This document shows, one piece after another, positions 4,913 through 59,447 of a stretch of 64,000 nucleotides of DNA. Within the stretch, counting starts at the first letter, position 1, and each line of letters opens with the position of its first letter. The translations under genes were made by a program, and so were the position numbers. Where the stretch lies: contig OZ004587.1 of assembly GCA_963924555.1 (NCBI GenBank), forward strand, positions 1,860,001 through 1,924,000, read 5' to 3'. Below the pieces are notes generated by a model, which worked only from the letters and a program-made list of their open reading frames with translations, made no database searches and had not been told where the DNA came from. The stretch is from Crambe crambe (lineage: Eukaryota > Porifera > Demospongiae > Poecilosclerida > Crambeidae).

Positions 4913-4913
4913 A

Positions 4914-7535: not shown

Positions 7536-7539
<4 letters not shown>
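7256..7539. mobile_element. Long-hairpin MITE, family A copy 2
   Basis: Nearly identical to the copy at 6177-6460, differing in the loop (ACATATACG instead of ACATGTACG). It was copied with the tandem unit rather than inserted separately. It is followed by an ATT microsatellite of about 30 bp. Confidence 0.85.
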
Positions 7540-7568
<29 letters not shown>

Positions 7569-31921: not shown

Positions 31922-32003
31922 ATGAAGAGAAATGATCTTCCATTGCTTCTAGCCGGAGTTATATATCTACTGATGATATACTTCTCCCTAGTTTCTGCTC
32001 AAA
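31922..32003 (+). CDS. Receptor gene 1 exon 1: signal peptide
   Basis: MKRNDLPLLLAGVIYLLMIY then FSLVSAQ: basic N-terminus, hydrophobic core and a small-residue cleavage region (VSA). The start is supported by the matching MKRND start of the paralogue at 45409. Donor GTGAGT at 32004, phase 1. Confidence 0.8.
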
Positions 32004-35000
32004 GTGAGTGAAGTAAATATTGAATTTTCTCTGCCTCTCAACACCATCCAAGCTGCAGTAAGCTTACAGTACATGCAGAGAATGACAAAGTCTAAGCACT
32101 ATTCTAACCTTCAATATAATTATATTGCTGGGCTTGTACTTAAAATTTAAGGGGCATGGCATGGGTGGGTTGAGTTTTATTGTGGGTGTGGAATTATCTC
32201 AGCAGGTAAAACTGGCAGCTAGTTTAGAGCTAAAATCCAGCTATCAAAATTTTTGTTGCCTCTTATGCTAGTGCCTGTCTCAAGAGTTGAAGATTCGCCA
32301 TCTCCTAGATCAGGTGCATGACACACTGATAAATGACTACTAGACTGTGTAGCCCTTTATAGTGCATGCGTGGAGGGTTAATAAGTCTTTGAGCCTTTGG
32401 ATGCTGCATTTCACCTAACACAGATACATATTATCAGGATAGCTTTTATTATTGTAGGAGCAGTCATTGTGAATACTACAGCAGTGGCTGGCACTCATCA
32501 TACTTTGACATGTACACTAGAGAACTTTGACTCCACTGGTATTCCTCTCTTGTACACATGGTCCATAGCAAATCAGAATATATCCACTTGTACCAGTGAA
32601 CAGTGTGTAATACACACTGTACAGTTAACTGATGCCCGCACTGACTATCGTTGTGAGGTCCGCAGACGTGATGGCAATACTGTGATTGCAATTTCAGATG
32701 ATACCAGCCTTGAAGTCTCCAGTAAGTCATAATATGTCTAGATAATATGTAGAAACATTATTAGTTTTTGATGTCCCTTGAATGCCTATTGTGAATTCAT
32801 AATATTCTTATCACACTTGTTACCAACTTGTTTTGAAGTAGGACTTGAGACAGAACTGAGGCCAAGGGTTGTCTAGGGTTAGTAGTGCCTTCATGAATTC
32901 AATCTTTTGAGTCTGCCCCTGCATGCAGGCTCCCCCATTTCTAGTGGGGAACTATAAGCTCTTGTGGGTTATAGTAGCCCTCCAGGAAAGGCTCGCTTTT
33001 CAAATCACATCTCTAAGTACAGCTATTTTATTGAGCAATTGGAATGCTTACCACAAGCACTTAGAGAGATAAGCACCTTAGATAAGTCTAGTGCCTCTAT
33101 GACAAAATGCTGTAGAAAGTAATAAGCTCAGCTGTTTATTGTAAGTGTTGTGGGCATGTTTTATTTGTGGGAAACGAACATATGCACATGTGTATTAAAT
33201 GTGACATACCTATTGAAATCTCAATTTGCATGAATAGGGGGGTCGCTTTGCTCACCAGTTTGATTACAGCATATTTTTAATTTTCAAATGCTTCGCTCAC
33301 CAATTGAATATGTTACAAGAACATACCCTAGTGATATTCATTAATGAGTAGTAGTGCACATGCATACATACAGTCTAGTTGGGAGATGAAAAAGGTCCTT
33401 ACAGTACGGACTTAATTGCATTGGCGAACTTTATGGTTTAGAATAACTAAAGAGCTTTGTTCTTTACCTTTGAAAAAAAGGATAGTCTGGAGGATTTTGT
33501 GCTTCTTAATTCATCTGGATTAGCTGTGCTCAGGCAAGTAATTCCTCTTTTTTATAGCTATTATTTTCTCATGCTTCATTTACTTACTGGCTCATCTGTA
33601 GACTTTCTGGATTTTCTTATGGGATTATCCTTATTTGGAAGGTAACAACAGAATATACCTTCATATCCTCATTACTATTTATCCATTGCAGTCTCTTCTT
33701 CACCACAATTTGGTCTGATGACAAAGACATTACTGAACTAATGTGGCACTAGATTTCATCATAATATTATAGACTATGCAGCTAGTTAGACAGCTATTTA
33801 GAGAGATGGTAGCTAGCTACTGGTCTGATAGTTATAGCTCACTACACTAATTGAGCACAATGATGAAGTCGGAAACCAAATCACCATAAAAAAATCAGTG
33901 TTGGTTGTTGATATTATGTATGTTGTAATTATTGGGTAGCTAATGGCAACAGTATGGTACTGTGCAAAGTGCAATACTAACTATTCTTTGGATGCTCAAT
34001 AAAACCACTGTACATGAAAACAGAGGTTGGCTTGAAGGAGCACGAGTAAGATGTTGGGAATGATTCTTGTTTGGTGAGTGCTGAAAAGCTCCCTTTCTCA
34101 AAATCATCACTCTGATAGCTATAGATCTTAAGGAGCAATAATGAATAAAAAAGGTTAAGTATAGGGATGGCTGTATGCAGTTCAAAAAAGTTCAGCAACA
34201 AGAGCCTCAGCCTTACCCATCACCACTATTCCTACTCTTCATTCCCCCCATGACAGGCCAAGATGAGATATAAAGGGAGTAAAGTAGGAATAGTTAGCTC
34301 GTAGTTGGTAATAATATTATTGGTAAGGCTGAAGTTCACTGAATGTCTTGTTGCTGAACCTTTTTTGAGCTGCACATAGCTAGCCATCCCTACTTTCTTT
34401 TTTTTTATATTTAGAATGAATTTACTTGTTCATCACTAATTTTTTGATGTAATGCTCTATTAATAATTTTTTTAGGCAACTGGATGCTGTGATCCTGCTA
34501 TCCAAGTTCATGACATTGTAGCTATGTAGTTCATTGGATATTGTATGAGCCAAAATGAATCTGATCTGGAAGGGCTAATGCTGATGGAGCTCGTACATAT
34601 CTATACAAGTTATAAAAATAAAATTGCCATTGACTTATATGGTCAAGGACGTATCGAGTCACGAAGCGACGAGAGGGCATGCAACTTCCAATGCTCTGTA
34701 TATAGACAGCATAATGTAAAATATTACTATAAATAGCTTAGCACGTGGTAGGCTCCATCCGCATATGTCTGGATACTGCAGTAAACTGTGGTTAACAATT
34801 TACAATTTTGCGATCTATACTAGTTGCATGCCCTCTCGCCGCTTCGCGGCTCGATATGCCCTTGATATGGTATTATGCATGTACCTGATATACTTGATTA
34901 GTATTGCATCAAGGCTTGATTCATAACCAGACTAGTGCCTAGGGTTTATGCTCTGAGCATCGAGAGACCAACATCAAGAGAGAAAGCTAATGACAGACTC

Positions 35001-37786
35001 ACTAGTTAGTTGTGAGGTCAAGGTCCAAGAATCACGTGTATGGTAGCTGGGCATAAAAAATGTCTGCCACATAGTCATTGTAGGTTGAAAGCTAGCAAGT
35101 TGGAGCATGTCAAATTAAAGGTAAAGGATTATAGCGCAATCAATTTTGAGTAGTGTGGTATAAAAATTATAGCATTTGAATAAACCATTTTTGAAATAAG
35201 TTATTTGATGATGATGATGATGATGAGCAATCTGTGCCATCCCTACTTAGAAAGTACTATCATACTCTCTGATGAAAGCAAGCATTTTACCAAGCATATA
35301 CTTATTTTTTCATTGTGCAGTTCCTCAATTCCGACTGTTTCAAGAAATAACTTCCATGCAAGACTTCTATGTTGGTTCAAATGTGACTTATAGGTGTCAT
35401 TTTGGCTACCCTCCTACTATAAGAAATATTACAGCTGATATATCAATCTCTGGACCTGGAATTGATCAAAACTCTGACCGTGTGTTTCTTGGAGAAGTTA
35501 ACCAAAGGACTGATCATTTTGGTAATATTGACTTTGAGCGTAGGTTGGAGTTCAACCCTATAAGTTCATCGGATACTGGAAGTTATCGTTGCAATGTAAC
35601 AGTCACATCTGCTGAGCCTAATCCTCTGGTCATGAGTAGAATGGAAGAAACAACTCAAAATATTCAAGTATTCAGTATGTAAACATGCGTAGTCATTCAG
35701 CTACATGTATTATACCTGTATCAGCATGCACTACTTAATTAAAAGAGCATTGCATCTTTGAATGCTTAAATCCAGCACTTCTAATCATGGTAGGATTTCA
35801 TATTTTAAATTAAAGGAGGGGGATGGGTTAGATGTAGAATCATCTAATAATACATTAATTTTGTAGGACCAACAATTAATATTTCTCTGAATGCCACCAT
35901 GTTTGATCGTCGCTTGGATGTTGCTCCTTATAACAGTCTCTCTTTCATCTGCTCAGCTGTCATAACCGTTAGAGGCACTCCAGTTAATCTTGACAGGGTT
36001 TTTAACTGGCAGCGTACCATAGGGGGATCTTCATCTAGCATCTCAGCTGAGTTCTTTACTGGCAGTTATTCAAGTACCAGTGGAAGTAGTGTACTTTTCA
36101 TCAATGCCACTGAAGCAGGAATCCACACTTACACCTGCACAGTGACTCTGGACGTCTCTCCAGCCCCTGATATCATCATTAATTCTTCTTCACAAGATGT
36201 CACCATTGGTGGTAAAGACTTGAGCTAAGAATAAGTTGGTCTCTATTTGTTTCATGATGCTCTACATCAATGATAATATATAATGGCACAAACAAACCCA
36301 AAACCATAATTTCAGGCCAGTCTGAGTCTGCTAAAATTGCAGTGGAGTTCACTGTGCACTGTCCAGATCTGGAATCAGAGGAGAGTCATCTAATTTATTG
36401 ATTGATTAATTTTATTCATTATTAATTTTCATAATTATTATATTTATTTATTTATTTATTATTTAAAGTACAGTTAATGGAATAGGTGATGATTTTCCTT
36501 AATTATCAATTTAGTTGCTACTGTTTACATATAGTTTTGTATAAATTACAGGTCCTTTCAATCCAGCTATGGCTACTGAACTCAGTACAAGTTTCATCAG
36601 CAATAAGACCAGATTAGTACTGTGGATAGTCCCCTCGATAACATATGACCCTGAGACATACATCGTACAGTATGGACCATCTGAATCCAATTTGAACCTA
36701 AACAGTTCTACAGTCTCCATTGACTCAAGTATAACACAAACCAATTTATTAGGCACAGTGGAGCTAACAGATCTCATAGTGAACACAATGTACTTCTATC
36801 GTGTGATAGCCAGAAACTCTGCAGGAACTACTAGCAGTGCCATAGCTTCTTTCACCACAGGCAATGTGGGTGAGTTATTATGCTTTAATTTCAATTTCAT
36901 AAAACAAGGAGGATAAAACATCATTCTTCATACTCTCAGTAGTTTTATTTGGTTTGGTTTGGTTTTTTCATTGCTTGATACTTTGTTTATTTACATACAT
37001 TCTCTGCTGCATGGAAGTTCTTTTAACAGGATGAATCACCTAGAAAGATAGCAGTAGCTATGTAAGACACTCATGCATAGAGCAGCTCTGCTAAGGCTGT
37101 GAAGGATCTCCAAATTGCGGGGCAGTATAGTTGAAGCTAGTAGAATAGATTTGAAAAAGTTTTCCTGTAATAGAGAAGCATACTACCTGCATTAATTTCA
37201 AAATAAGACGTTGAGTGATTGGTTGTGTCCTTCACAATACATAATAATTATAATAGAAGTTGCTCCTGAACTTGAAAACTTCATTGTATTTTTTTTCTGG
37301 AAGCTTTATTAATCAAATATTAGCTAATAAGGATCAAGAGAATCACATAGGTATATGTGCAAATTGGGGTACGTATACATGGTATAAAATTTGCTATTTC
37401 TCTTGTTATTGTAGTCTTCATAACCATGATAACAACCAAGACAACAGCCATGACGACAACTATAACAACACCCCCTTTGGCAATCATCATCATTGGTGTA
37501 TCAGTGCCTGTCATTCTCATGGTCCTTGTAGGGATAAGTGTTTGTATAATTGTGACAGTAATTTGCTGTAAAACAAAGTAAGTGCATCATAATTAGCTAC
37601 TATAAATGAGCCAAACTATTATTGTATTTTGCTACAATTGACTCAATCATACATAGCTATTGCAGGAAAAAAACGCAGTCACCAATGAACATTGCCAGTC
37701 GTAACCTCACTGAAAATCAAGCTTATGGTGTAATGCCTAATAAATTGAATGATGACATTAATGTAGTGTATGAAGAGATAATGTAG
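31922..37786 (+). CDS. Receptor gene 1: Ig-Ig-Ig-FN3-TM with tyrosine tail
   Basis: The deduced coding exons are 31922-32003, 32458-32721, 35321-35674, 35867-36211, 36552-36869, 37415-37577 and 37666-37786. Together they give 1647 bp, 548 residues plus stop, with every junction in frame at GT-AG sites. The product is a type I membrane protein: a 27-residue signal peptide, three Ig-like domains, one FN3 domain, a Thr-rich stalk, one hydrophobic helix and a 42-residue cytoplasmic tail. The tail ends ENQAYGVM...NVVYEEIM. VVYEEI fits the ITIM pattern, YEEI is the classical Src-family SH2 ligand, and YGVM fits the PI3K-type YxxM. YxxM and YxxI are 11 residues apart, close to an ITAM. All domain exons are phase 1-1. 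Cell-surface recognition with tyrosine-based signalling is inferred; no ligand is known. It is tandem to and paralogous with 45409-51641. Confidence 0.8.
32458..32721 (+). CDS. Receptor gene 1 exon 2: Ig domain 1
   Basis: 88 codons between TTATTATTGTAG and GTAAGT. Ig hallmarks: HTLTCTLENF (first Cys), LLYTWS (core Trp) and TDYRCEVRR (second Cys). Two extra Cys (STCTSEQC) could form an additional disulphide. It differs from the gene 2 counterpart at 13 of 88 residues by eye. Confidence 0.85.
34160..34395. mobile_element. Hairpin MITE family B in receptor gene 1 intron 2
   Basis: TAGGGATGGCTGTATGCAG and AAAGTTCAGCAACAAGAG, mirrored by TTGTTGCTGAACC and TAGCCATCCCTACT. It is absent from the homologous intron of gene 2, so it was inserted after duplication or lost there. 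Confidence 0.8.
34637..34866. mobile_element. MITE with GCCGCGAAGCGGC ends, copy 1
   Basis: The left end GGACGTATCGAGTCACGAAG, then CGACGAGAGGGCATGCAACT, is mirrored by AGTTGCATGCCCTCTCGCCG and CTTCGCGGCTCGATATGCCC. The terminal repeat contains a GC-rich palindrome (GCCGC-TTC-GCGGC). The interior (TAATGTAAAATATTACTA, CGCATATGTC, TACTGCAGTAAACTGTGG) matches the inverted copy at 39555-39770. Confidence 0.8.
35321..35674 (+). CDS. Receptor gene 1 exon 3: Ig domain 2
   Basis: 118 codons between CATTGTGCAG and GTATGT. VGSNVTYRCHFG gives the first Cys, DISISGPGIDQNSD the middle, and RLEFNPISSSDTGSYRCNV the D-x-G-x-Y-x-C second Cys. No obvious core Trp. Three N-glycosylation sequons (NVT, NIT, NVT). 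It is homologous to the orphan minus-strand exon at 11864-12190. Confidence 0.85.
35867..36211 (+). CDS. Receptor gene 1 exon 4: Ig domain 3
   Basis: 115 codons, acceptor TTTTGTAG, donor GTAAAG. SLSFICSAVIT (first Cys), RVFNWQRT (core Trp) and AGIHTYTCTVTL (second Cys). Sequons include NIS, NAT and NSS. Without splicing the frame would stop shortly after the donor at 36226. Confidence 0.85.
36552..36869 (+). CDS. Receptor gene 1 exon 5: FN3 domain
   Basis: 106 codons, acceptor ATAAATTACAG, donor GTGAGT, phase 1-1. FN3 features: RLVLWIVP (strand with Trp), YIVQYGPSES (Tyr strand), LTDLIVNTMYFYRVIARNSAG (the L-x-P/N-x-x-x-Y-x-x-x-V-x-A-x-N signature). The gene 2 counterpart is mostly lost. Confidence 0.8.
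37415..37786 (+). CDS. Receptor gene 1 exons 6-7: transmembrane helix and signalling tail
   Basis: Exon 6 (37415-37577) gives a Thr-rich stalk (TTKTTAMTTTITTPP) and a ~30-residue helix (LAIIIIGVSVPVILMVLVGI...CC) with no charged residue. That argues against pairing with a charged adaptor. Exon 7 (37666-37786; TTGCAG acceptor, phase 2) gives the tail to a TAG stop, with Tyr in QAYGVM and VVYEEIM. Neither exon has a recognisable counterpart in gene 2. Confidence 0.75.
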
Positions 37787-38149
37787 TAGCTACATAATAA
37801 CAGTAGATACTGCAACATAACATGTAGCTATCAGTATTTGTAATTAGCCCAAGTAAATTTTTAGAAACTATAGCTTTTAGCTATCAATTTCTATTTTGAT
37901 TATTGTATAGCTAATATTGCTATTTCTGTCATCAGTGATCATAATGTGTACAAGTAAGTGCAAAAATTTTTTTAAAAAGTTTATGTAGGGATGGCTCTAA
38001 AATCTAGGCTGGGCTGATATGAACTGCATTCAGCCTTGTATCAAAACAATCCCTACATTCACATCCACTGCCTAAATAGCAAGCAAATGGCATGCAGTTT
38101 TAAATGTAGGGATTTTTTCTATACGAGGCTGCAGTCCATATACATAAAG
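37787..38149. other. 3' flank of receptor gene 1, shared with 54.4 kb
   Basis: At 37915-38030 the words ATTGCTATTTCTGTCATCAG, TGATCATAATGTGTACAAGTAAG and GATGGCTCTAAAATCTAGGC match 54440-54545 downstream of gene 2. This is the right-hand end of the duplicated segment; it may be 3' untranslated sequence. Confidence 0.5.
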
Positions 38150-38347
38150 GAAAAATATTTAAAAAGAAAAGTAGGGATGGCTGTGTGTGGTCAAAAAATT
38201 TCAGCAACAAGAGAGTGAACTTCAATTTAGAAACCCCTTACCCATCACCAATATTACCAATTATGAGCTATTATAAACTACTCCTACTTCACTCCCATGA
38301 CAGATATAAAGGGAGTGAAGTATGAATAGTTAGCTCATAGTTTGGTA
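38150..38347. mobile_element. Hairpin MITE family B, interrupted copy
   Basis: GTAGGGATGGCTGTGTGTGG to TAGTTAGCTCATAGTTTGGTA. The right arm is displaced by the MITE inserted at 38348; TATAGTGGTGGGTTTAGGG after 38665 may be its continuation. Confidence 0.7.
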
Positions 38348-38664
38348 TGAAGCAGAATTAGTGTCAAAAAAAAGTGGAGTGAGAGGAGTGCAGTGACTGC
38401 AGTATGGTGCAGTGAATTCACTGAATTAAGTGCAGTGAATTGAGTGCAGTGAGCTGAGTGCAGTGAATTGAAGCAGTGAAATGAATTGAGGGTTGGAAGA
38501 TCGGTCAGAATCTCTTCCAGTGCTCAGCATTTCCAGAAGTTGCATCTGGAACAGAGCAAAAACATTTTATAAGCAAAGTCTGCATGGGAGATCCCACTCT
38601 TTTAAGGAAGAATTTTACTGTTTTACTGTCTCACTCCACTTTTTTTGACACTAATTCTGCTCCA
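38348..38664. mobile_element. TA-flanked MITE with CAGTGA-rich interior
   Basis: A ~34-bp inverted repeat with one or two differences: TGAAGCAGAATTAGTGTC on the left, complement of GACACTAATTCTGCTCCA on the right, with TA on both sides. The interior holds a degenerate array of CAGTGAATTGAGTG-type units (38385-38480). Confidence 0.8.
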
Positions 38665-38753
38665 TATAGTGGTGGGTTTAGGGAGTTTCTTATTAAGAAG
38701 TACCCATCTTAATTCACATCTTAAGCACAGCATTTACAAAAAAATCATGCAGT

Positions 38754-38820
38754 GGCGTATCTAGCGAGGTGCTAAGGGTGCTCGAGCACCCCCCCTCGCA
38801 GAGTAGGGAAGCTACTACTT
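38754..38820 (+). mobile_element. Single end of a CAGTGGCG MITE
   Basis: CAGTGGCGTATCTAGCGAGG and GGTGCTCGAGCACCCC match the right end of 18211-18666 inverted. No partner end was found, so it is truncated. Confidence 0.55.
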
Positions 38821-39459
38821 GTAGTCTCACGTAGCCAGACCCACTTTTTCTCGGGGGTGGGGGTCTGGTCAAACTCGCATAAACGTTTCAGGTCCTGCAT
38901 TTGACCGACCAGAAGGGGTGTGGTTACGTGAATTTAAGTCTTGCAAAAGAAAAGTGTGTATGGTCACAGCTAGCTCAGTGCTCCTTTTTCATTTTGACGG
39001 CTGGTCACTAGCACTATAGCAGCAGGATGGCTGCAAGCAATTCTTCTGTGGGTACCCGTATTGAAATAACAAGCTAAGTCTGTGCAGTTAGTTAGCTACG
39101 TAATAATGATCATCTTGTCAAATTCACCAGACAAAAGTGAAGACTTTCCATAGCCAGTAGGTGAAAACGCGAATGTATCATGACCCTGCACAAAAAAGAA
39201 TATGGCCTCGGCTTGCTTGGCCTTCAACTCCAATCCACAAATTAAACTCTGGATTATTTACTACCATCTCTATTAATTTTGATGCGCATTAATAGTACTA
39301 ATGCGTGCGCAAAATATTACTTGATATTATTGCCTGCATTAAAAAAAATAATTGCTGACTGTGCAAAACAAAATGTTCATGTGAGTTTGACCAGACCCTT
39401 TCTTTCCCCCACCCCCAAGAAAAAGGGTCTGGCTAGAATGGTCGGCTGTGTGAGACTAC
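38821..39459. mobile_element. Foldback MITE with C/G-rich cores
   Basis: GTAGTCTCACGTAGCCAGAC and GGGGGTGGGGGTCTGGTCAA on the left are mirrored on the right by TTGACCAGACCC, CCCCCACCCCC, AAAGGGTCTGGCT and TGTGAGACTAC. Same architecture as 2608-2861 and 19359-20838. No clean target duplication is visible. The 106-codon frame over its right end is not a gene. Confidence 0.7.
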
Positions 39460-39554
39460 ACAGCAGCTACTGTGCCTTTGGGAAGCTGAAATCCATGGCA
39501 TCAGGGCCTGATCAAGCTCAGAAGGTGGAAGAGAAGCTCTTTAACTTGCATAGA

Positions 39555-39770
39555 TATATTCAAGGGTGTATCAAGCCGCGAAGCGGCGAGAGGGCATAAT
39601 GTAAATTGTTACTATTATTATTAAGCTACAGTTTACTGCAGTAAACGGACATATGCGGGCAGAGTCTACCATGTGCTAGGCTATTTTTAGTAACATTTTA
39701 CACTATGCCGTCTTGGGAGTTGCATGCCCTCTCGCCGCTTCGCGGCTCGATACGCCCTTGATATAATTCC
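39555..39770. mobile_element. MITE with GCCGCGAAGCGGC ends, copy 2 (inverted)
   Basis: AAGCCGCGAAGCGGCGAGAG to CTCTCGCCGCTTCGCGGCTC. The interior matches 34637-34866 in opposite orientation (TACTGCAGTAAACGGACATA, ACCATGTGCTAGGC). Confidence 0.8.
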
Positions 39771-40639
39771 ATGCACGCAATAATGTGACGCACTGTGACG
39801 CACGCAAATCATTAGCACATTCTATTTTGCTGAGTGTGCAGAACGAAAAGACCCTTTCCCTTCCCTTGGGTTTGTAAAGGGTCATCCCGCGAGACTAATG
39901 GATCATTCACTGTCCGAATATCAAGTTGCTGACGTGTTCATTTAAAATTCTATTAGCTCCACCTATCTTTCCATCGTGGAATTTTATTTTATTAATGTCC
40001 TGCAGTGTCCGTTCATATATGGCGGTCGATAATTGAAAATCTACTGAAAATGTGCCAGACAAAGTTGCTGACAAGATAGAAAATATCTGGGGGACAATAT
40101 TCCCTGGTGAAAAAGTCTGGGGGACTGTATTCCCTGGGGAAAATGTCTAGGGGACACTATTCCCTGGGGGGGTGGAGGACATTATTTACTGCTTTCACCT
40201 GTGATCACTGCATTATGATCACTGCATGCCTCCACAGAATGTGGTCTTTGCCTTCACTGTGAACACTCTTCACTGCTTTTATGAATGAATGAGCTGTTTT
40301 CAGCTGAAATTCCCATATTGTTCCAAATTAAGGGTAAACTATCAACAGTTCATATCGACCATTCATAACATAAACAAATGAATTGTGTTCAGCTGAAATT
40401 CCCCTGTTTACATTGTTCCAAAAGGTAAACTATCAACAGTTAATGTTGACCATTAATTTTGCTGTGCACCCGTCTTGCCATTAGGAAGAGGAACTGACAA
40501 AAAATGGGAATGGAAACTGGAAATTTAGGGTCATCAATAGATAACGCTGCGCATGCATGGTTGATATAATTTTCATTAGCTGTAGCTAATTAAACTGTCC
40601 CACCAACACCAGATCACCACATCACACTCCTTCATGAAA
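39771..40639. repeat. Repeat-rich stretch with two tandem duplications
   Basis: 39849-39895 is a single foldback-family end (AAAGGGTCATCCCGCGAGACTA). 40088-40180 has three copies of a ~30-bp unit (GGGGGACWRTATTCCCTGG). 40296-40460 has an ~86-bp unit (TTCAGCTGAAATTCCC, GGTAAACTATCAACAGTT) twice. No gene. Confidence 0.55.
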
Positions 40640-40770
40640 CTCACTGCCTCTCGGAAATGCCATGTCATCAACCGGGTGACACATTAGAATGCCATCTTCT
40701 CACCTTGTCCATAGATTGTCTATCGTCTTGCAGCCGGACCATGCATGCACATGCATTTACGTATGCAGAT
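40640..40770. repeat. Block shared with 54.6-54.7 kb
   Basis: TGCCTCTCGGAAATGCCAT, ATCGTCTTGCAGCCGG and CATGCACATGCATTTACG match 54640-54720 downstream of receptor gene 2. It supports the right boundary of the segmental duplication. Confidence 0.6.
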
Positions 40771-41149
40771 AGCGCCAAGCGTGGCTGATCAGGTCATAGA
40801 TATACTAGACTACATACACAGGATTGGAAACAGGTCACGTGCACCCATAACAACAATATAAACAATCCGTGTACATGCTAAAGTGCCCCAAACAAACAAG
40901 GGAGGAGAAGTAGTGTGCCAAAATTCTGCTAAACTATAGCCAATTGGTAAGTTTAAAGAATGCAAAGAGTGGGGTAGTACAGTGCTAAACAAGCATAGTT
41001 CTTAAAAAGGCTGGTTTCTCAAGTGTTACAGGGCATAATTACGAGTAACAATGGTAGTTCGACTTTGTGGACCTCTGGAGCTTGCATGGGTTTTAAAAGT
41101 ATAGTCTCTTTTTTTCCACTTAGGTAGTGATCATTCATATTATGTACAA

Positions 41150-41262
41150 ATGTACTTCTTGCCTGAAGTAGTTTTTGGTGTAGATCTCCTCAGTGAGACC
41201 AAAATCACCTACTTTGATGATGAACTGATTGTCTATCCTAAAGTCCATGCATGTCGAATGTT
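41150..41262 (-). pseudogene. Relic tyrosine-kinase exon with DFG motif
   Basis: On the minus strand one frame gives RIDNQFIIKVGDFGLTEEIY then TKNYFRQ: the catalytic-loop end, the Mg-binding DFG motif and the start of the activation loop with its Tyr, as in receptor tyrosine kinases. The frame ends soon after (stop near 41138), and upstream toward 41290 the expected HRDLAARN is not intact. A weak continuation (PMQAPE, about 41075) resembles the APE region. It is a fragment without the rest of a kinase domain, so it is called a pseudogene. It lies between the two receptor genes, on the opposite strand. Confidence 0.55.
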
Positions 41263-41263
41263 A

Positions 41264-42419: not shown

Positions 42420-42935
42420 TTTAAATTCACAGCAGGGCTAGAGACCATGCATACATGTGAGGTTGATTAATGACTTGTACCATGGCCATAATTTTAACAG
42501 ATTAGCTACAGCTAGTTCAGTGTTAATGAACAAAATTGAGAAATGTTTAGCTAGTTAATTGATCAATCTTTGGAGAAAAAATGAGTTCAGCTATATCCTG
42601 TAGCCAGATTTTTTGTATAATTAGTTAAAAATATGGTGTGTGACTCCTTGGTACAAAAAACCAGTATAAACATGGCCCATGTTTGTGTAAACACTGTAGC
42701 TATTAGCTATACTTGCAATCACTCATTGTTATTATCAGTATTTGATAAGGAAACAAAAATAAAAACTAATTTTGTAGCTAGCCATGACAAACTAGAGCCA
42801 ATAGCCAAGGTTCTCCATACCAGCTTCAATTTTGTTGCATGCATGCAGGCATATCCCAGTGTATGAGTATCGCATGCTTGCTGGGTATTATAGTGCAGCT
42901 CTAGCTGTTCTGTTCTTATTGCTGAGTGCAGGTAA
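42420..42935 (+). promoter_or_regulatory. Conserved upstream block of receptor gene 2
   Basis: Paralogous to 30590-31165. It ends in GTTCTTATTGCTGAGTGCAG followed by GTAAGC, a plausible donor for a non-coding first exon, with the matching acceptor at about 45385-45386 just upstream of the ATG. It is about 2.5 kb from the coding start, with the SINE array lying between. The promoter role is inferred from conservation alone. Confidence 0.45.
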
Positions 42936-43639
42936 GCCCTTTCGGATTCCTCCATCTCCATATACACTAAGAAGAGAGCAAAGAGGTTTTTAGCATGTTT
43001 TTTAAAATCCGCTAAATCTAAAGTACTCTAGTCATAATCTTTCATGAATTCAGCTTATTTCATTCTTATAGTATCAAACTGTGACAATAATAACGCCAAT
43101 AATGGGTAGAGATCACCAATTATAGCAAACTATGATATGACTTCATGTCCACAAGGCCTGTGGAAATGATAATACATTACTACCGAGATAACTAGGAAAT
43201 TAATTTATCAGGCTCGTAACAGTTAGTGAATTAATATGGAATGGAATTGGCCCACTATTAATGAATGATGTAATGAGTGAATGATGCTAGAAAGTCTCAC
43301 TTTATATATTCAGATGAAATCACAGGCTTTGGCGGGGGGAAGTAGCTAAGCCAGTAGCTAAGCCAGTAGCTACCCTCATTCAACTTTTTCCTTCTTCTGA
43401 GCTCAGTATATTCCATTAAATCTTGATCTGTAGTAGCTATGAGGGAGTCATAGCTAATACTCTGTACTCCATTAATTATGTTTTTTCCTCCTTTAATAGT
43501 CTCTCTTCTTTCTCCATTATTGCTAGCTTGTGTGTACCCAGCAACTATAGGATAAAATGAGTTCTGAGCTGCTTCTAAATGCACATAGCTACATGTATAC
43601 ATACATGTACACTAGAGAGTATATGTACGTACATAAATT
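42936..43639. other. Intergenic or intronic, no exon seen
   Basis: AT-rich. Minus-strand frames of up to 101 codons (43297-43602) lack domain content. AGCTAAGCCAGTAGCTAAGC shows a short tandem at 43343-43372. Confidence 0.35.
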
Positions 43640-44594
43640 TATTTAAAGGTGTTATCATGTAATGAGATGGTGAAGGAGGATTGAAGAAAAACTGGCAACC
43701 CAAGTGACCCCGCAACCCACCAGCTGAGTTTGAACCCGCAGCATCTGACTTTAGCCGTCATAGCCACAGGACCCAACCGAATGAGCCACCAGGCACCCAG
43801 GAACCAGCTCTCTCCAATCCACCTTATATACTGCATTGATGGTACTGCAATACTGCAGTCTCAGATGCTGCGGGTTCAAACTCAGCTGGTGGGTTGCGGG
43901 GTCACTTGGGTTGCCAGTTTTTCTTCAATCCTCCTTCACCATCTCATTACATGATAACACCTTTAAACATGCCTAGATGAGAGATAACCATCGTTTGTGA
44001 ATTTTCAGAGGGTCTACTAGTATGGCTTCTCTCTTGACAGAGAGATGTTTCCAGTCGGGATTCTGACGGCACATACTAAGTGGCTTGCACTGGTGTGGGA
44101 TTGGAGAGAGCTGGTTCCTGGGTGCCTGGTGGCTCATTCGGTTGGGTCCTGTGGCTATGACGGCTAAAGTCAGATGCTGTGGGTTCAAACTCAGCTGGTG
44201 GGTTGCGGGGTCACTTGGGTTGCCAGTTTTTCTTCAATCCTCCTTCACCATCTCATTACATGATAACACCTTTAAACATGCCTAGATGAGAGATAACCAT
44301 CGTTTGTGAATTTTCAGAGGGTCTACTAGTATGGCTTCTCTCTTGACAGAGAGATGTTTCCAGTCGGGATTCTGACGGCACATACTAAGTGGCTTGCACT
44401 GGTGTGGGATTGGAGAGAGCTGGTTCCTGGGTCCCTGGTGGCTCATTCGGTTGGGTCCTGTGGCTATGACGGCTAAAGTCAGATGCTGTGGGTTCAAACT
44501 CAGCTGGTGGGTTGCGGGGTCACTTGGGTTGCCAGTTTTTCTTCAATCCTCCTTCACCATCTCATTACATGATAACACCTTTAAACATGCCCAG
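43640..44594. repeat. tRNA-derived SINE: inverted copies plus a 309-bp tandem array
   Basis: The plus-strand unit carries TGGCTCATTCGG (close to pol III box A) and, about 50 bp on, GGTTCAAACTC (close to box B), the layout of a tRNA-derived SINE head. A minus copy occupies about 43640-43815. A plus partial follows at 43858-43970, making an inverted pair. Two 309-bp tandem units then begin at CATGCCTAGATGAGAG (43968 and 44277), with a third start at 44586. Units are nearly identical, so amplification is recent. Open frames here recur in every copy and are not genes. Confidence 0.75.
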
Positions 44595-45408
44595 ATGAGA
44601 GATAACCATCGTTTGTTTATACATAAATTAATTCTAGCTCTACAATAATATGTACATATGTCACGGCTGCTTTCCAAGGAAATTTATCTATAGCTAATTG
44701 GATACATGATGGTATTCATTTTTACACAGCAATGCCTAAGAACACTTTGTATAGCTAGTGGTGTCTATGGTTCCCTTTCTCTTCTGTGCCTGAATCAGAG
44801 AATATAATTACGTATAGGTACATTAGTACTCTCTAGGTAGAGATGGCACAGATGCCTCCCATAGGAGTTCATAATTCTAGAGTACTTATCTCCTTTGAGA
44901 GAAATACTCTAGATTTATGCCAACTGATGACGATGATAGCAGTAAGAGGTGTTCACAAATAAGTTTTCTGACATTGGCTATATGACACTAAGGGAGAGGG
45001 GTCTGAGGGTGTGACTAACATTCTATTCCATCCAACTATGTTAGATTCAGTCTTTTATTGTCATATGTGTCTTCAATAGTTCATCATTGCCATGATGCTA
45101 AGGGAGTATCATATAAAATCATTTGTGAAAGCCCCTAACTCGCTCTTCTCCAGCAACAATAGATAAATGTATTTAGCTATTCCCAATTTTTTTCATGGAA
45201 TTTTATAGCTAGAGAGAAATCATATCGAATCACGAACCTTTTTGACCTCGGAAAGTTTCGGTCATAATGGTAGCTTAGGAACAAAAGTAGACAAAAGTGA
45301 AACTTTTATTCACAGCAATAATATCCTTTTATTGTATGCACTAACTCGTCATCTGCCATCTTATCATCTTATTCGTGTGCATGCAGCACTTCATGCAAAT
45401 CAAGGAAA
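44595..45408. other. Upstream region of receptor gene 2
   Basis: No repeat or exon is recognised apart from the splice acceptor at 45385-45386 and a short 5' untranslated stretch leading to the ATG. Confidence 0.4.
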
Positions 45409-45481
45409 ATGAAGAGAAATGATCCATCATTGCTTATGGTGGGAGTTATTATTATATATTTCTCCTTAGCTTCTGCTCAGA
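45409..45481 (+). CDS. Receptor gene 2 exon 1: signal peptide
   Basis: MKRNDPSLLMVGVIIIYFSL then ASAQ, 24 codons plus one base. Donor GTGAGT. Three codons shorter than in gene 1. Confidence 0.8.
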
Positions 45482-48400
45482 GTGAGTAAATATTTTATGA
45501 TAAAAAATTATTATAAATACCTTAACAACTCTCGATTAATTTATTTCCTATCTTTCTATTGTAGGAGCAGTTATTATGAACACTAGAGCAGTAGCTGGCA
45601 CTCAACATACTTTGACCTGTACACTAGAGAACTTTAATTCCTCTGGTATTCCTCTCTTGTACATATGGTCAAAAGCAAATCAGAATATATCCACTTGTAC
45701 CAGTGAACAGTGTGTAATACTTGATGTACAGTTTACAAGTGCCCGTACTGACTATCGTTGTGAGGTCCGCAGACATGATGGCAATACTGTGATTGCAATT
45801 TCAGATAATACCAGCCTTGAAGTCTCCCGTAAGTCATAATTATTATGTCTAGATACGTACGTAGTAGAAAGAGAAGTGTAGATTTTGATATCCCATCATA
45901 TTATCTTGAATGTCTATTAGCTATAATTCATAATACCAGCATACACAATATCCAGCTTGTTTTGGAGTAGGAATGAGACAGACCTAAGGCCAAGGATGTT
46001 TGAAATCAATCATTTGAGCCAGGTCCCTCCCCCATTTTTGTGGTTACATGGTGGGAAACTATAAGCACTTGTGGGTTGTAGTAACCCTCCAAGAAAGGCT
46101 CGCTGTTCAAATCACATCTCTAAGTACAGAGATTTTATTGAGTATTCGAAAATTAAAAATATGCATCCCATAATGAGTGTGCATGCATGCACATGTGGCA
46201 ACCATAGTTTGAGCTAATAATGTCTATGAAAGAGCTCGATCCTTAGAGTACAGACTTGCCTTGGCGAATTATATGGCTTAGAATAACTACGTATATAGCT
46301 ACATAAAGAACTTACTTTTTTTAGAAATTGCCTGAGATCATTATTTGCACAATTATGGAAACAAGTGAGAAGGAATCCAGGGGGAATATAGGACCAAAAA
46401 TATACCTGGATAATCATGTAGAGATGTTTATTATAGACTTGATATATTAGAGACACCTTTGAAAGAGCTATGTTCGAAAGGAGTGGTGTTAATATATGCG
46501 AGTCAACTATTTGCAAGCTGTTGCATAGACATAGATTTACTTGAAAGAAAATTAGACAATTAGCTAAGTTGCTCTACAATACTCAGTATCTTTATGGGGA
46601 GAATTCATAGCCATGTGTTGGTTATTTTTGCATCTTATAATACTGCAGACAGAATATAGAGATAGCTAATGGCAACGGTATGGTAGCTACTAACTGCACA
46701 ATGCGCAATAGCTACTGAATATAAAAACCACTGTACACAAAAGTAGAGAGGGTGAGTAGTTGATTTGAAGGAGCACGAATGAGATGCTGGGAATGATTCT
46801 TGCTTTGTCCCTTTCTCAAATCATTTCTCATTTGAATCTTACATGTAGGGACTGGCACATTCTGCCAGCATAGTTTTTGGGAATAATGGTCTATCAAAGC
46901 AGGAAGCATAATGGTGTATCAGAAGTGAACTCCATGGTTGATTTTGAATGTATTTATCATGTGTGCCTATACTAGCTAGCCTAGCTTACGTAGTCTTTCA
47001 AATACAGCTACGAGCATAATTAAAGAATAGGTCAGTAAAACAAGAATAATGACTTTATACAGCTGGAATTAATAACAGGGAAGCAAAAAAGCATAATGTG
47101 CCAGTCCCTACTTACATGATAGCAATTATTAGTTGGCGAGCGAAGCGAGCGAGCACACACTTGTGAGATTCACGATATAATAATGACTAAAAATAGCTAG
47201 CGGGCCTGGTTTAATACGCATGTGCATACGTTCGTTTGACCTTTGACCCCACAAATGAAACCTGCCCATAGCACTTAGAACAAACAGCTAGAGCTTATTG
47301 CTTTCTACAACATTTTGTCATAGAGGCACTAAGTGGATTGTAGGCGCCACAATATCTTACTTAGCCCAATAAGTCAAAGTACAAATGACTTTACCAACTC
47401 CTTCACTTACACAAACATACCCTAGTTTAATATTGCACCTTTCAGTATGGAATACCATGCCCACCGAGGGTGTAATAAATCATGGTATTCCACATACTGA
47501 AGGATGCAATAACTTATTTATTCTATAGCTATCTAAAATGAGACAAACAACTTGTTAAGGTTATCTAAAAGGAGAATATATATAGTGCTTCAACTCTTTG
47601 CTTCTGAGTTTATATGTAACAAAGCACTTAGATAAGCCAAGCGCCTACAATACACTTTGATAAGCCTATATGACAAGAACTAAAATCATTTATGTGCATG
47701 CACAGGCATGTAGCTAATACGAGTATTTATTCCATGTCACATGGACCAACCAAATTGTCTCATTTTAGAGAGCTATAGAATAATGATACATAAGAAGCAC
47801 TAATGAAATGAAAACAAGCATACAAGCATGCTTATTTTTTCATTGTACAGTTCCTCAATTCCTGCTGATTGAAGAAATAGTTCCCATGCAAGACCTCTAT
47901 GTTGGTTCAAATGTGACTTATAGGTGTTATTTCAACAACTACATTAATATAAGAAATATTTCAGCTGATATATCAATCTCTGGACCTGGAATTGATCAAA
48001 ACTCTGACCATGTGTTTCTTGGAGAAATTAACCAAATGATAGATACATTTGGTAATATTGACTTTGAGCGTAGGTTGGAGTTCAACCCTATAAGTACACA
48101 GGATACTGGAAGTTATCGTTGCAATGCAACAGCCACATCTGCTGAACCTAATCCTCTGGTCATGAGTAGAATGGAAGAAACAACTCAAAATATTCAAGTA
48201 TTCAGTATGTAAAGATAGCCATTCAGCTCTGTTAATACACATGTGCCAGCATGATGCACTACTGAATTGAATGTTTAAATCCAGTACTTGTTGATTCACA
48301 TAAATTATTCGGCTTGGGCAACAAAAATTGGCCTCATAGGAAATAGTGCACAAGCTAATTACTAGTAAGCTTGAACAATAAATTAATTATAAACTTAATT

Positions 48401-51400
48401 ATTATGAATTTTATTTACAGCAAGTGTTATGACCCAGTATAGTTTGTGACTAGGAAATTTTTTTTTGAAGGGTGCATGGAGGACTTCATTAATTTTGTGG
48501 TATCATGCTTTTCTTCTATAGGACCAATGATTGATATTTCTCTGAATGCCTGTTTGAGTGAACATTACTTTGATGTCTCTCCTTATAACAATCTCTCTTT
48601 CATCTGCTCAGCTAACATAACTGTTAATGGCACTCCAGTAAACCTTCACAGGGTTTTTGGCTGGCAGCATACCATGGAGGGGTCCTCATCTAACATTCCT
48701 TCAGAGTTTTTTACTGGCAGTCAGTCAAGTATCAGTGGAAGTAGTATACTTTCCATCAATGCCACTGAAGCAGGAATCCACACTTACACCTGCACAGTGA
48801 CTCTGGATGTCTCCCCAGCCCCTGATATCATCACTAATACTTCTTCACTAAATATCACCATTAATGGTAACGACTCCAGCTAAAAATAAGTTCAACATTT
48901 TTGTTATATGATGCCATAAAAGGGAATAGCAAGCTTGGGTGATTTCTAATTGAGTCAGCTAAATCCTTGCATTAGCTATTATGGAGTCAACTATATGCAC
49001 TGTTCAGTTTTGGAACCAGGGGAGAGTCATTTAATAATTAGCTCTATTTTATTTATCAAATTATTTTACAAAGTACATATTTTACATAGCTAGTGATTTG
49101 CAGTATACATGTAGTCAATGGAATAAGTGGAGCATGATCATTTGAGTGTGCTAACTTTTTTCTCCATTTCTTCAATTCAATAAGAGATTGTAGGACAGGT
49201 CCATCCACATTATTAGCTATGCCATCTCAATGCCTGATGCATGAGGGGCCCTTTGGACCTGGTTACTTCCTAGTGTAATTAGCTATATCCATTCCATCGG
49301 CATTAAATTTTAAACGAATATTCACCTACAATTATTATTATGTGCAGCCAAAAACTCTGCAGGAACTACCAGCAGTGCTACAGCTTCCTTCACCACTGGC
49401 AGTTCAAGTGAGTAGCTGTAATGATTACAGGAGTACTAAAAGAGAGTATAAATTTGATTGAATGGAGAAGAGATTATCTGCTAGCTAGATAATTTTTCAG
49501 TTGTTGTTTAAAAGAGCTTAGTGCTAAGATCAAATAAGTATACGTAGGCAAGCTGATTCAAGTAATCTTTAAGGTAGATAGAAATCCTTGGGAGCGGATA
49601 TTGGCATACATAGGTAACATAGCATGTTTATTTTAAATTTTATACCAAAAAAATTTACCTAAAAGCTAGTGCATTCTGTGTATCCAGCTTTGAGTCAGCT
49701 CCTTGTACCCAAAAGCTATAGATTAGCTACTGCATGTAATCAGACCTATTACAATGAATGGGGAAAGGCAGGGTCACCAATATTAAAGTCAAGCTATGTA
49801 TAATTACGTAAGTGTTATGGTTTCCATCTCACTGAACTTAGCCGACCCTTTATTCTAAGCACAGGGGAAGAAATGATCTTGGCACACTGATGTATTTGTT
49901 AGTTTTTGTGAAATGCATTACTTAGTCAAAAACCGCCAGCGCCAAATTTTTAATTACAACCGGAAGTGATATTTTGGGCACAATATTTATAGCAGGGGTT
50001 GGTGTGCTCCAGTTATGGTTATCAGGACTTCTAAAAACATTTTATATGAAATGTTAACAACTTCTTTGACCTCATACTTTATTAGAACTTACTTTTTTTT
50101 AAATATCAGTGCGTAAAAACATGGCTGATTAAATACTAATTTAAAAAGTTAGTTCCCACCAATAAAATCTGTCACAATAATTATAGCTAACAAGGGGTAT
50201 TGATTAATCTTACCTAACAGGTATGTCTATCAAACTATCAAAATAACAATTTTGTTTTTGCAGTGAAGACATGCATTGACTCAATAAAATGTTCATCACT
50301 ATAATTAGCTATGTACATCAAAAATCAAACTTGTTCCTGGACCAGTAATGCATGACCATTACAAATTAATTCTCCAGTGACTTCTTTGCTGCCATAGCAT
50401 GTGTTAGTATGCTTCAGCTATTCACCAAATACATAGTTGAGAGATCAACTGTTGTAGTAGCTACTTTGCTACTTCATTAGTATGATGCACCATTACCTTC
50501 TTGAATACACCTTCCCTATGTTTGAATATCTTCCAATACATGTTTAGCTAGCTACTGTCTTCTTAAGAATAGAATGAAGCTACGAACTCACACTATGAAA
50601 ATACATTAAATCCTGTGTCATTTGGCATAGCCAACCCTTTATAAACTGCAAAGGAAGACAGAGTGACCTTGAAGTTCACTGACTGTAAGACTACGTTAAT
50701 TATACAAAGAGCATCCTCAAGATTACTGCAAACTCAGCATAAAATGCCATATTGAATGGCAGCTGTTAGTGTCTGACTAATGGCTGAGAAATAGAAGATG
50801 CATGATATTTTTTATGTAACTCTATACAGTGCTATTATAGCTATTTAATGAGATGAGAAGCTAGAGTGCCTGTAAGAACAGAAACATTATACTTAGTATC
50901 ATTATAGGTAGCTATACTTTCTTTTCCTTTTCCCTTTTTCATGCAGGTACGACAATTAGTAATGATGCAGGTACAACTATTACCTGGTACATTTTGGCAC
51001 CAACTTTGAGTGTATTATTACTACTATTCATATCAGTAGTCGTACTAAGCTGTTTTTATTACCATGTCTACCAAAAAAAGTCCACAGTTCATAGAGATCA
51101 AGATACTGTAGAAAATGCTACCAGTGCAAACCAAGATACTATAGAGAATGCTACCAGTGCAAACCAAGATACTATAGAGAATGCTACCAGTGCAAACCAA
51201 GATACTATAGAGAATGCTAACAGTGCAAACCAAGGTACTATAGAGAATACTACCAGTGCAGACACACCAACTGAAGGAATTTATTCACTAATTTCCCAAG
51301 AAAATATCCATACCATCTATGGCACAGGCACAGAGTATGAAGAGTATCAAAATAATGACACGAGTGCTATGAATGAACCCAATAACGCTGACTATTCCAG

Positions 51401-51641
51401 GATTACTTTTGTCACAAATGATAAGAAACGTCGAGATATACAGCATGCTCCTGACAACTATTCCAGGATTACTTTTGTCACAAATGATAAGAAACGTCGA
51501 GATATACAGCATGCTCCTGAACCTCTAGACATTCCAGACTGGGGTGAAGGTGATATGATGGTATACCAAAATGTCACGACTTTAATGAAGAATATGGATA
51601 CATCAAAAGCTCTTCCCGATTTTTATGAATCATCCTTATAG
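45409..51641 (+). CDS. Receptor gene 2: Ig-Ig-Ig-(FN3 remnant)-TM with long tyrosine tail
   Basis: The deduced coding exons are 45409-45481, 45565-45828, 47851-48204, 48522-48866, 49348-49407 and 50947-51641. They sum to 1791 bp, 596 residues plus stop, all phase-compatible. Signal peptide and three Ig exons are paralogous to gene 1 with identical Ig exon lengths (264, 354 and 345 bp). The FN3 exon is cut to its last 20 codons, behind a new in-phase acceptor. The last exon encodes TM and tail and is unrelated to gene 1: five 11-residue QDTIENATSAN repeats, GIYSLI, HTIYGT, EYEEYQNN, two copies of YSRITFVTNDKKRRDIQHAP and MVYQNV. YQN motifs fit Grb2-type SH2 ligands. No strict ITIM is present. 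The skipped-FN3 model is inferred; transcript data could change exon 5. Confidence 0.75.
45565..45828 (+). CDS. Receptor gene 2 exon 2: Ig domain 1
   Basis: Acceptor TTTCTATTGTAG, donor GTAAGT. HTLTCTLENF, LLYIWS and TDYRCEVRR, plus the extra STCTSEQC pair. Differences from gene 1 are spread, with a cluster at ILDVQFTSA versus IHTVQLTDA. Confidence 0.85.
46856..47110. mobile_element. hAT-type MITE copy 2 in receptor gene 2 intron 2
   Basis: TAGGGACTGGCACATT inverted ends, with CTTACATG duplicated exactly at 46848-46855 and 47111-47118. Opposite orientation to 28078-28378 and not present in the gene 1 intron. Confidence 0.9.
47851..48204 (+). CDS. Receptor gene 2 exon 3: Ig domain 2
   Basis: Acceptor TTTTTCATTGTACAG, donor GTATGT. 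Divergence from gene 1 is focal: YRCYFNNYINIRN replaces YRCHFGYPPTIRN just after the first Cys, and LLIEEIVPM replaces RLFQEITSM at the N-terminus. DISISGPGIDQNSD and the last ~25 residues are unchanged. Confidence 0.85.
48522..48866 (+). CDS. Receptor gene 2 exon 4: Ig domain 3
   Basis: Acceptor TTTTCTTCTATAG, donor GTAACG (non-optimal, but at the same position as GTAAAG in gene 1). LSFICSANIT, RVFGWQHT and AGIHTYTCTVTL mark Cys, Trp and Cys. Confidence 0.85.
49197..49407 (+). pseudogene. Eroded FN3 exon; last 20 codons retained as exon 5
   Basis: GTCCATCCACATT...AGCTATGCC after a GACAG (49197) looks like the decayed start of the FN3 exon (gene 1: GTCCTTTCAATCCAGC at 36552), but the next ~120 bp no longer match. 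From 49348, after TTATGTGCAG, the final codons AKNSAGTTSSATASFTTGSS match gene 1 exactly in phase and end in GTGAGT. Use of this new acceptor keeps the whole gene in frame while removing nearly the entire domain. Confidence 0.65.
50947..51641 (+). CDS. Receptor gene 2 exon 6: transmembrane helix and repeat-bearing tail
   Basis: The acceptor is CCCTTTTTCATGCAG; a second in-frame acceptor AATGATGCAG lies 24 bp on (exon from 50971). The helix WYILAPTLSVLLLLFISVVV is followed by LSCFYYHVYQKK, a stop-transfer. The 190-residue tail has five 33-bp repeats (51096-51260) and two identical 66-bp repeats (starting at the Tyr codons 51393 and 51459). Tyr motifs: GIYSLI, YEEYQNN, YSRI twice, VYQNV, FYESS. 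KKRR in the 66-bp repeat is basic. Stop TAG at 51639-51641. Confidence 0.75.
51096..51260 (+). repeat. 33-bp coding minisatellite, five units
   Basis: Units encode (D/N)Q(D/G)T(V/I)ENATSA-type repeats in the receptor gene 2 tail. The middle units are almost identical in DNA, so copy number is likely to vary between individuals. Confidence 0.9.
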
Positions 51642-58845: not shown

Positions 58846-59447
58846 CTGTGTCTGCTAGCTAATTAAATTAGATAGTACATACAGTGTACACAAGGGCTAT
58901 AGTACTACTGAATTTCACTACACTATTATTGGTGTCTTAAAATTCATTCTTGTTTGCAGTTAAAATTTGCTACTGAATGGAATGGGAATTTCTGCAAAGT
59001 GCAGATTTTAGCTGCCGAAACCAAATCATGCACTACAAGTAGAAGTCCTGGGTTCCTGGGTTAGAAGTCCTGAGAACATAGTTTCTTACAATTATAATTA
59101 TGATGTAAATCTGGGCCATGGGGACCATGATAATTTTAGTAATTATTAAACAAGTTTAACATAAAATTATAACCCTGATTATGCATGAGATTCACAGATC
59201 TATTTCTATTCAGCTTACTACATTGTTGATTTAGTTGTCACAACTTTTGTATTAGCATTTTGCAATGTGACAAGCAACTTGCAAAACTCTGTACAGTGAG
59301 GGTTTCACAAATCATTTATAAAAGACATGTATTATGCATAAAATTATTTTTTCTACAATGTGGTTTACACAAGGGAAGTAGACTATAAAAAAATAATGCA
59401 AATGCTTACTTAGTTCCCATGACATTAATGATACAACAGGTACACTC

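Follow-up and report, generated by a model that had tools for sequence, protein, structure and literature searches.

Can a family of neighboring genes couple one recognition surface to several intracellular signals? The question is raised by a 64,000-nucleotide stretch of the genome of the sponge Crambe crambe (hereafter, the window; contig C10, positions 1860001-1924000, of a 143-Mb assembly), which holds two adjacent genes, gene 1 (31922-37789, plus strand) and gene 2 (45409-51641, plus strand), with related immunoglobulin (Ig) exons and unrelated transmembrane (TM) and tail exons. A reading made from the letters of this stretch alone (the sequence-only reading) took the two for paired receptors, in which the same recognition surface gives opposed signals. 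Strong support exists for the part of that proposal that concerns one recognition surface with different outputs, and it comes from elsewhere in the genome more than from the window pair.

A cluster of receptor genes

A genome search with the Ig2 and Ig3 exons of gene 1 gave 64 matches, most of them at 1.407-2.594 Mb of C10 and the rest on C12, C20, and C16. The corresponding exons of gene 2 were found with E-values of 6.8e-59 (Ig2) and 2.8e-46 (Ig3), so the likeness of the two genes is not due to chance. Exon mapping placed 15 close copies at 1.44-2.60 Mb of C10, named here by their position in kilobases (hence g1895 for gene 1 and g1907 for gene 2). They share the exon order signal peptide, Ig1, Ig2, Ig3, FN3, TM, and tail, have largely conserved splice sites, and are ~68-100% identical exon by exon. 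Comparisons of Ig1 use 13 of the 15 genes (g2008 gave no Ig1 match and g2533 is frameshifted there), those of Ig2 and Ig3 use all 15, and those of FN3 use 12 (without g1907, which has a remnant, g2545, which gave no match, and g1749, which is cut by the stretch end).

Eleven more distant loci, tallied from FN3 exons that are 47-57% identical to that of gene 1, bring the gene cluster to about 26 (at least 15 close and 11 distant loci) within ~1.2 Mb of one contig. All 11 lie on the minus strand; of the 15 close copies, the plus strand carries 13 (Fisher p 2e-5, calculated over copies that are not independent). The distant minus-strand genes often stand directly left of close plus-strand genes, and this divergent unit may have been duplicated as such. 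We rejected the idea that the distant copies are tail-less or glycosylphosphatidylinositol-anchored, given that the TM exons in three of the 11 loci, inspected directly, precede a usable GT donor. C12 and C20 hold four additional loci of lower similarity, which match in Ig1, Ig2, Ig3, and FN3. A search for protein homologs scored 7993 candidates and returned none at E 0.001.

Three classes of tail

The sequence-only reading proposed looking through the whole genome for shared Ig exons with different tails, and all but one of the 15 close copies end in tail A, tail B, or kinase exons. Tails were called over these 15 copies, and none was found for g1749; the motif scan described below covers the A and B tails among them and does not extend to the 11 distant loci. 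Tail A is present in four genes (g1895, g2342, g2445, g2533) and in two hybrids that join TM-B to tail A (g2008, g2297), tail B in five (g1907, g2323, g2504, g2545, g2593), and kinase exons follow the TM exon in three (g1452, g1543, g2494; class K). Tail A is a small exon that ends NQAYGVM...VVYEEIM or VVYEDIQ. In g2445 and g2533 it is reached through a different TM exon, TM-D; the assignment in g2445, where the module is 8 kb downstream, is by position. Tail B is a single long exon that encodes the TM segment, NQDTIENATSA-type repeats, GIYSLI, and two YSxITF units, with YQNV in four of the five genes.

The class-K TM exon is A-type and lacks the tail-A donor, and tyrosine-kinase exons start ~0.8-1.3 kb downstream. 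In g1452 the TM exon, two juxtamembrane exons, and two kinase exons join in frame to the end of the DNA read. The resulting kinase fragment matches Pfam PK_Tyr_Ser-Thr (2e-13, profile positions 42-103 of 258) and, among others, the EGFR, Eph, MET, and FGFR kinases of the PDB, which gives g1452 the make-up of a receptor tyrosine kinase for the N-terminal part of the kinase domain. We had considered a short, tyrosine-free class-K tail and rejected it; it is a read-through past the tail-A donor site, and the kinase exons come after it. For two more kinase matches inside the cluster, located at 2528 and 2587 kb, no ectodomain is given, and none of the matches listed falls at C10:1.548-2.498 Mb.

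The tail modules are not confined to the cluster: there are TM-D/tail-A modules on C8 (one) and C12 (at least two, in the order TM-tail), and C5 has tail-B-like exons at two places. Several observations stand beside these. At L047 (C10:2453398-2456568) the TM-D exon preceding tail A continues in a 179-residue open extension (no Pfam match at E 0.1), and similar TM-D exons are found on C8 and C12. A tail-B exon at C10:2377780-2378308 (plus strand) adjoins a distant Ig gene on the opposite, minus strand, with no plus-strand Ig match nearby. The minus-strand interval C10:2311770-2318695 contains a TM-D/tail-A module (2311770-2312141) and two FN3 pieces, one of them with a stop codon, and no Ig exon matched; it is probably the remains of another copy, and the module and the FN3 pieces at 2318451-2318695 were counted neither as close nor as distant. 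Outside the cluster, protein-kinase exons form large arrays on C8 (3.92-6.14 Mb, at least 27 matches) and C16 (5.42-6.05 Mb, at least 24).

Exchange of tails between genes

Highly similar ectodomains can carry different tails. The divergent genes g2323 (tail B, minus strand) and g2342 (tail A, plus strand) lie ~12 kb apart, and their proteins are 99% identical in Ig1, 90% in Ig2, and 98% in Ig3. Their DNA agrees at 94-95% through Ig2-Ig3 and FN3 and at 96% in a block that starts in Ig1, with one intron block at 77%; beyond FN3 there is no DNA match of 60 bases or more. When the hybrid g2297 is included, Ig1 is 98-99% and Ig3 98-100% identical among the three genes, whose tails differ. Near-identity of ectodomains, which the sequence-only reading ascribed to the window pair, therefore holds for this trio but not for genes 1 and 2, which are 85% identical in Ig1, 81% in Ig2 (83% by another alignment), and 73% in Ig3. 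Across classes, g2008 shares 95% identity in Ig3 and 90% in Ig2 with the kinase gene g1543. Clustered paralogs with highly similar ectodomains and different tails, a feature by which paired receptors can be recognized, are thus found here.

In a tree of Ig1-3 built from 14 of the 15 genes (without g1749, which has no tail call, and with the hybrids as their own class), tail class changes at least eight times. The approximately unbiased (AU) test rejects a single clade for tail A (p 5.5e-9), tail B (2.5e-4), and class K (9.8e-5). Tail class does not follow the ectodomain phylogeny.

Two genes are mosaics that preserve what their DNA marks as direct traces of exchange. g2297 is 96% identical to the B gene g2323 from FN3 into TM-B, beyond which it matches g2342, an A gene, in the FN3-TM-A intron, again at 96%. 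We dropped the idea that the two TM exons of g2297 are designed alternative splicing; the sequence is that of a recombination junction, and the two may be used alternatively. In g2008, a stretch across Ig2-Ig3 shares 97% DNA identity with the K gene g1543, and FN3 is closer to the A and B genes; its TM-B coding sequence is fused to an A-gene splice donor, with the A intron and tail exon behind it, and the reading frame stays open from FN3 through TM-B and tail A as far as the A stop codon. These sequences demonstrate, at the DNA level, the exchange of tails on a shared ectodomain.

Motifs in the tails

We scanned 11 tails (six A, five B) for signaling motifs, excluding the TM and repeat parts of tail B; the hemITAM was not among the motifs scanned. 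Every tail A contains a match to the consensus of the immunoreceptor tyrosine-based inhibitory motif (ITIM; VVYE[ED]I, 6/6) together with YxxM (6/6), which is usually an activating PI3K site. Tail B has no ITIM match (0/5) and carries three to five Yxx[ILV] per tail and YxN in four of five. The spacing of the activating counterpart (ITAM) is seen in none of the 11 tails, and no charged residue was seen by eye inside TM-A or TM-B. By consensus, then, tail A would fit an ITIM, and tail B appears to be neither ITIM nor ITAM. Paired receptors are also defined by an inhibitory ITIM member, for which the six tail-A exons give the consensus match with YxxM alongside, and by an activating member with an ITAM or a charged TM segment; since the latter was sought in the tails at hand and not found, we do not claim membership. 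The opposed signals of the sequence-only reading are not supported by this distribution, and that reading did not foresee a kinase class. Its description of both tails as tyrosine-rich is right for tail B (eight tyrosines in the scanned part) and wrong for the tail-A exon, which has two. On C12, a tail-A-like exon (L069, 440500-446500, minus strand; NQAYG...YEEIDNHGDVYTEI) fits an ITAM by its YxxI-x6-YxxI, in a provisional gene model that we set aside as evidence.

Selection and structure models

Pooled ratios of nonsynonymous to synonymous differences (pN/pS) are 0.63 for Ig1, 0.90 for Ig2, 0.55 for Ig3, 0.49 for FN3, 0.47 for tail A (six genes), and 0.62 for tail B (five genes). Within Ig2, two variable patches stand out, columns 31-42 (pN 0.189, pS 0.041) and columns 61-72 (pN 0.208, pS 0.109); in Ig3, columns 7-18 have pN 0.192 and pS 0.127. 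The best 12-column windows of the other exons were reached in 919 (Ig1), 104 (Ig3), and 396 (FN3) of 1000 column shuffles, and that of Ig2 in 42, so that Ig2 hypervariability as strong positive selection was dropped and is kept as suggestive only. In a low-confidence structural model of Ig2 (predicted local distance difference test, pLDDT, 62; Ig-like matches at E 1.2e-3 or weaker), the two patches lie mainly between strands and may correspond to the B-C and D-E loops. The Ig1 model (pLDDT 70) has no match below E 1.7.

Structure of the window genes

Gene 1 has seven exons and 548 codons and gene 2 six exons and 596 codons, with GT-AG at every internal boundary; the product sizes given in the sequence-only reading are borne out with clean splice sites. 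Introns are in phase 1 as far as the TM exon in both genes, and the intron between TM and tail A of gene 1 is in phase 2. As that reading also stated, the Ig1, Ig2, and Ig3 exons are of identical length in the two genes (264, 354, and 345 nt), and all start in phase 1. DNA similarity between the genes spans exons and parts of introns and stops in the FN3 exon, in agreement with its claim that the TM and cytoplasmic exons are completely different. The signal-peptide exons, which it took as shared, are similar but differ in length (82 and 73 nt) and are 65% identical. The predicted signal peptides and TM segments are hydrophobic stretches seen by eye in the translations. Neither gene encodes a kinase domain; both end in stop codons.

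In gene 1, the signal-peptide exon (31922-32003, plus strand, as are all exons of both genes) has an in-frame ATG and the donor GTGAGT and resembles those of other copies. It is followed by the exons of Ig1 (32458-32721; Pfam Ig_2, 1.3e-8), Ig2 (35321-35674; Pfam Ig_3, and a weak model with Ig-like matches), which contains the two more variable patches, and Ig3 (35867-36211; Pfam ig). The sequence-only reading, which made the ectodomain a signal peptide and three Ig exons, overlooked the FN3-like exon (36552-36869, 318 nt, phase 1), which scores 27.6 bits with Pfam fn3 (cut-off 25); over the same stretch, Pur_ac_phosph_N scores higher, at 33.0 bits (cut-off 30). The TM-A exon (37415-37577), supported by its splice sites and by copies elsewhere, starts in phase 1 and ends in phase 2, and the tail-A exon (37666-37789; NQAYGVM...VVYEEIM, then stop), with copies on C10, C8, and C12, holds the YxxM and the ITIM-consensus VVYEEI.

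The exons of gene 2 are those of the signal peptide (45409-45481, by the splice model), Ig1 (45565-45828), Ig2 (47851-48204), and Ig3 (48522-48866). In the profile check that the sequence-only reading proposed, Ig_2, Ig_3, and ig score over the cut-off in gene 1, and gene 2 matches only below it; the Ig exons of gene 2 are identified by their 73-85% identity to those of gene 1. Of FN3, gene 2 keeps the last 60 nt, as a possible small exon (49348-49407, phase 1-1); the frame is open with or without it. The TM-B/tail-B exon (50947-51641), which has copies elsewhere, encodes the TM segment, 33-bp repeats (4.9 copies), a 66-bp duplication with YSRITF (51391-51520), YQNV, and the stop codon. The two units of this duplication are 100% identical here and differ in the other four tail-B genes, which points to recent duplication or conversion in gene 2.

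A third gene, a distant copy divergent from gene 1, is represented by an Ig2-like exon (11865-12206, minus strand, ends approximate) that is 45% identical to the Ig2 exon of gene 1; its Ig3, FN3, and TM exons are found immediately to the left of the window (L073), and no Ig1 was found within the window. Between this exon and gene 1 is an open reading frame (ORF) for a DDE_1 superfamily transposase (14942-16054, plus strand; Pfam PF03184, 1.5e-25). Two overlapping ORFs occupy 57831-58854 (minus strand), and a scan of one of them (58114-58854) showed a likeness to IS630/Tc1-type transposases (DDE_3 1.7e-5, below cut-off). A tandem array at 43861-44616 has a 309-bp unit in 2.4 copies (99%), whose GGTTCAAACTC resembles the B box of a tRNA, as in short interspersed elements; ARAGORN, run with the bacterial code, found no tRNA in the array. 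At 6083-7622, two repeat units encode nearly the same peptide on both strands, that is, they are palindromic repeats like those of miniature inverted-repeat transposable elements, and at 4913-5630 there are three 240-bp direct repeats (95%).

Explanations for the shared ectodomains

The cluster, the shared ectodomains, the recurring tails, and the mosaics are features of the DNA itself. The explanation that we favor, and that we hold to be about evenly balanced between right and wrong, is that genes 1 and 2 belong to a large clustered family of type I Ig receptors that takes in receptor-tyrosine-kinase genes and recombines with them, exchange joining its ectodomains to K, A, and B outputs in a paired-receptor logic. 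Exchange in or near the FN3-TM-tail region would keep linking similar ectodomains to different signaling modules: a juxtamembrane region and tyrosine kinase (K), a short tail with YxxM and VVYE[ED]I (A), or a long tail that carries YSxI several times and, as a rule, YxN (B). The three classes would read a common or overlapping set of cell-surface ligands, and clustering driven by ligand would expose the A and B tails to phosphorylation by class K or a Src-type kinase; the two tails would then recruit different SH2 proteins, so that the response would be set by the mix of classes on the cell and not by the ectodomain alone. Alternatively, the kinase-less forms might compete with the kinase form. 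Either way, a kinase would be the third output in what is otherwise the logic of paired receptors, and such receptors could plausibly serve in self/non-self or microbe recognition. That the whole amounts to a receptor complex of sponge grade, with one Ig/FN3 surface family rewired by recombination to a kinase, a PI3K/Src-type docking tail, and a multi-tyrosine docking tail for use in such recognition, we suggest only tentatively.

Several points weigh against this explanation. Only three of the 11 inner branches of the tree are well supported, as expected if exons recombine, and the AU test gives each ectodomain one history, where exchange may have mixed histories inside it. The class-K kinase domains are read in their N-terminal part only and are putative kinases; the kinase-exon search scored 150 of 408 candidates, and a PF07714 search found no kinase inside the cluster among 121 of 1944 candidates scored. 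A search for the p85 adaptor was borderline (31.3 bits, 31.7 with neighbors, cut-off 31.5) at a place with in-frame stops, a second place fell below the cut-off, and the control also matched, below the cut-off, in Methanocaldococcus jannaschii; the PI3K step is therefore unproven. Several copies appear damaged or incomplete: Ig1 of g2533 is frameshifted, the FN3 donor of g1543 reads CT, g2008 lacks an Ig1 match, g2545 lacks an FN3 match and has a shorter tail, and g1749, for which no tail was found, has a second, broken Ig3. The Ig2 signal, at 42 of 1000 shuffles, is weak.

Such damage, the large kinase arrays elsewhere in the genome, and the pooled pN/pS of 0.49-0.63 in Ig1, Ig3, and FN3 would suit ordinary birth and death of receptor tyrosine kinases, with the A and B forms as kinase-less adhesion or decoy by-products whose tails came by chance exon capture and whose signaling is neither coordinated nor opposed. 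This is possible, if doubtful, for the tyrosine motifs of the tails are conserved (pN/pS 0.47 in tail A, 0.62 in tail B), 11 of the 15 copies end in the same two tails (six A, five B), and tail A is in frame after recombination. A mis-assembly, in which collapsed or mis-joined haplotypes give false mosaics, is very improbable: near-identical copies (96% in DNA) are the usual site of mis-joins, yet the two hybrids do not share a junction, they also differ in divergence (96% identity between g2297 and its best relatives, 81-87% between g2008 and the A and B genes used for comparison), and g2008 keeps its frame.

A strict pair of inhibitory and activating receptors, on the model of vertebrate KIR, LILR, or PIR, with tail A inhibiting through ITIM and SHP and tail B activating, could draw on the VVYE[ED]I of all six tail-A exons. 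The motifs make it the less likely scheme, and we regard it as quite improbable, because tail B has no ITAM (0/5), tail A contains YxxM as well, TM-A and TM-B show no charged residue by eye, and there is a third, kinase class. We also think it unlikely that the cluster is an allorecognition complex (ARC) like that of Hydractinia or the fuhc of Botryllus, with highly polymorphic alleles; the 1.2-Mb Ig-superfamily cluster with many copies and mosaic exchange and the Ig2 patches with pN above pS are what such a complex would lead one to expect, but the patch test is marginal and microbe recognition fits equally well.

If the tentative picture of such a receptor complex holds, the logic of paired receptors would go back close to the base of animals, with receptor tyrosine kinases forming an ancestral arm of it. 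A sponge-grade cluster with visible tail exchange on a shared ectodomain and a kinase among its outputs would move the design of same recognition and different signal earlier in animals, point to a path by which kinase-less immune-type receptors could have come from receptor kinases, and define a 1.2-Mb locus for comparison with fusion and rejection. The genome, which would fit a sponge, has Wnt matches at several places, very large kinase arrays, and two weak innexin matches (27.1 bits, cut-off 25); sponges are not known to have innexins, so the last count slightly against that placement.

Comparison with known systems

We found no sponge precedent for such a cluster among the titles and abstract openings listed for the open-licence literature. 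Passages of a 2025 review describe the candidate allorecognition proteins of sponges, cnidarians, and ascidians as not conserved across groups, and the cnidarian, ascidian, and mammalian systems as converging on ITIM/ITAM signaling (PMC12065747). The family works like the fester co-receptor (FcoR) family of Botryllus fuhc described in the same source: the Ig receptors there belong to a single locus and, depending on allele or splice form, bear either an ITIM or a hemITAM, uncoupling binding from output. In Crambe, by contrast, the swap is between paralogous genes by recombination, the 11 tails scanned have no ITAM (hemITAM being outside the scan), and there is a kinase class. As a cluster, the family resembles the Hydractinia Alr genes of the ARC, in the parts of the accounts at hand (PMC11067881; also PMC11999971), in which identity among Alr is reported as low, whereas the close Crambe copies are ~68-100% identical per exon.

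In composition, the family is like the Ig-domain receptor tyrosine kinase of Geodia cydonium (PMC12018476) and a kinase-less sponge Ig adhesion molecule (PMC11999971); the portions of these descriptions considered do not mention a genomic cluster, three recurring tail classes, or mosaics. Ectodomain shuffling among receptor tyrosine kinases is a subject of another paper, as its available part indicates (PMC8662651). In the Xenopus XFL/FcR-like paired receptors, as summarized in part of the published account, six Ig subtypes are combined with two TM subtypes (PMC2413239). An FcR-gamma-type partner or charged TM segment has not been identified in the Crambe family, which otherwise works likewise, while adding a class with tyrosine-kinase exons and kinase-less tails that bear tyrosine motifs of their own.

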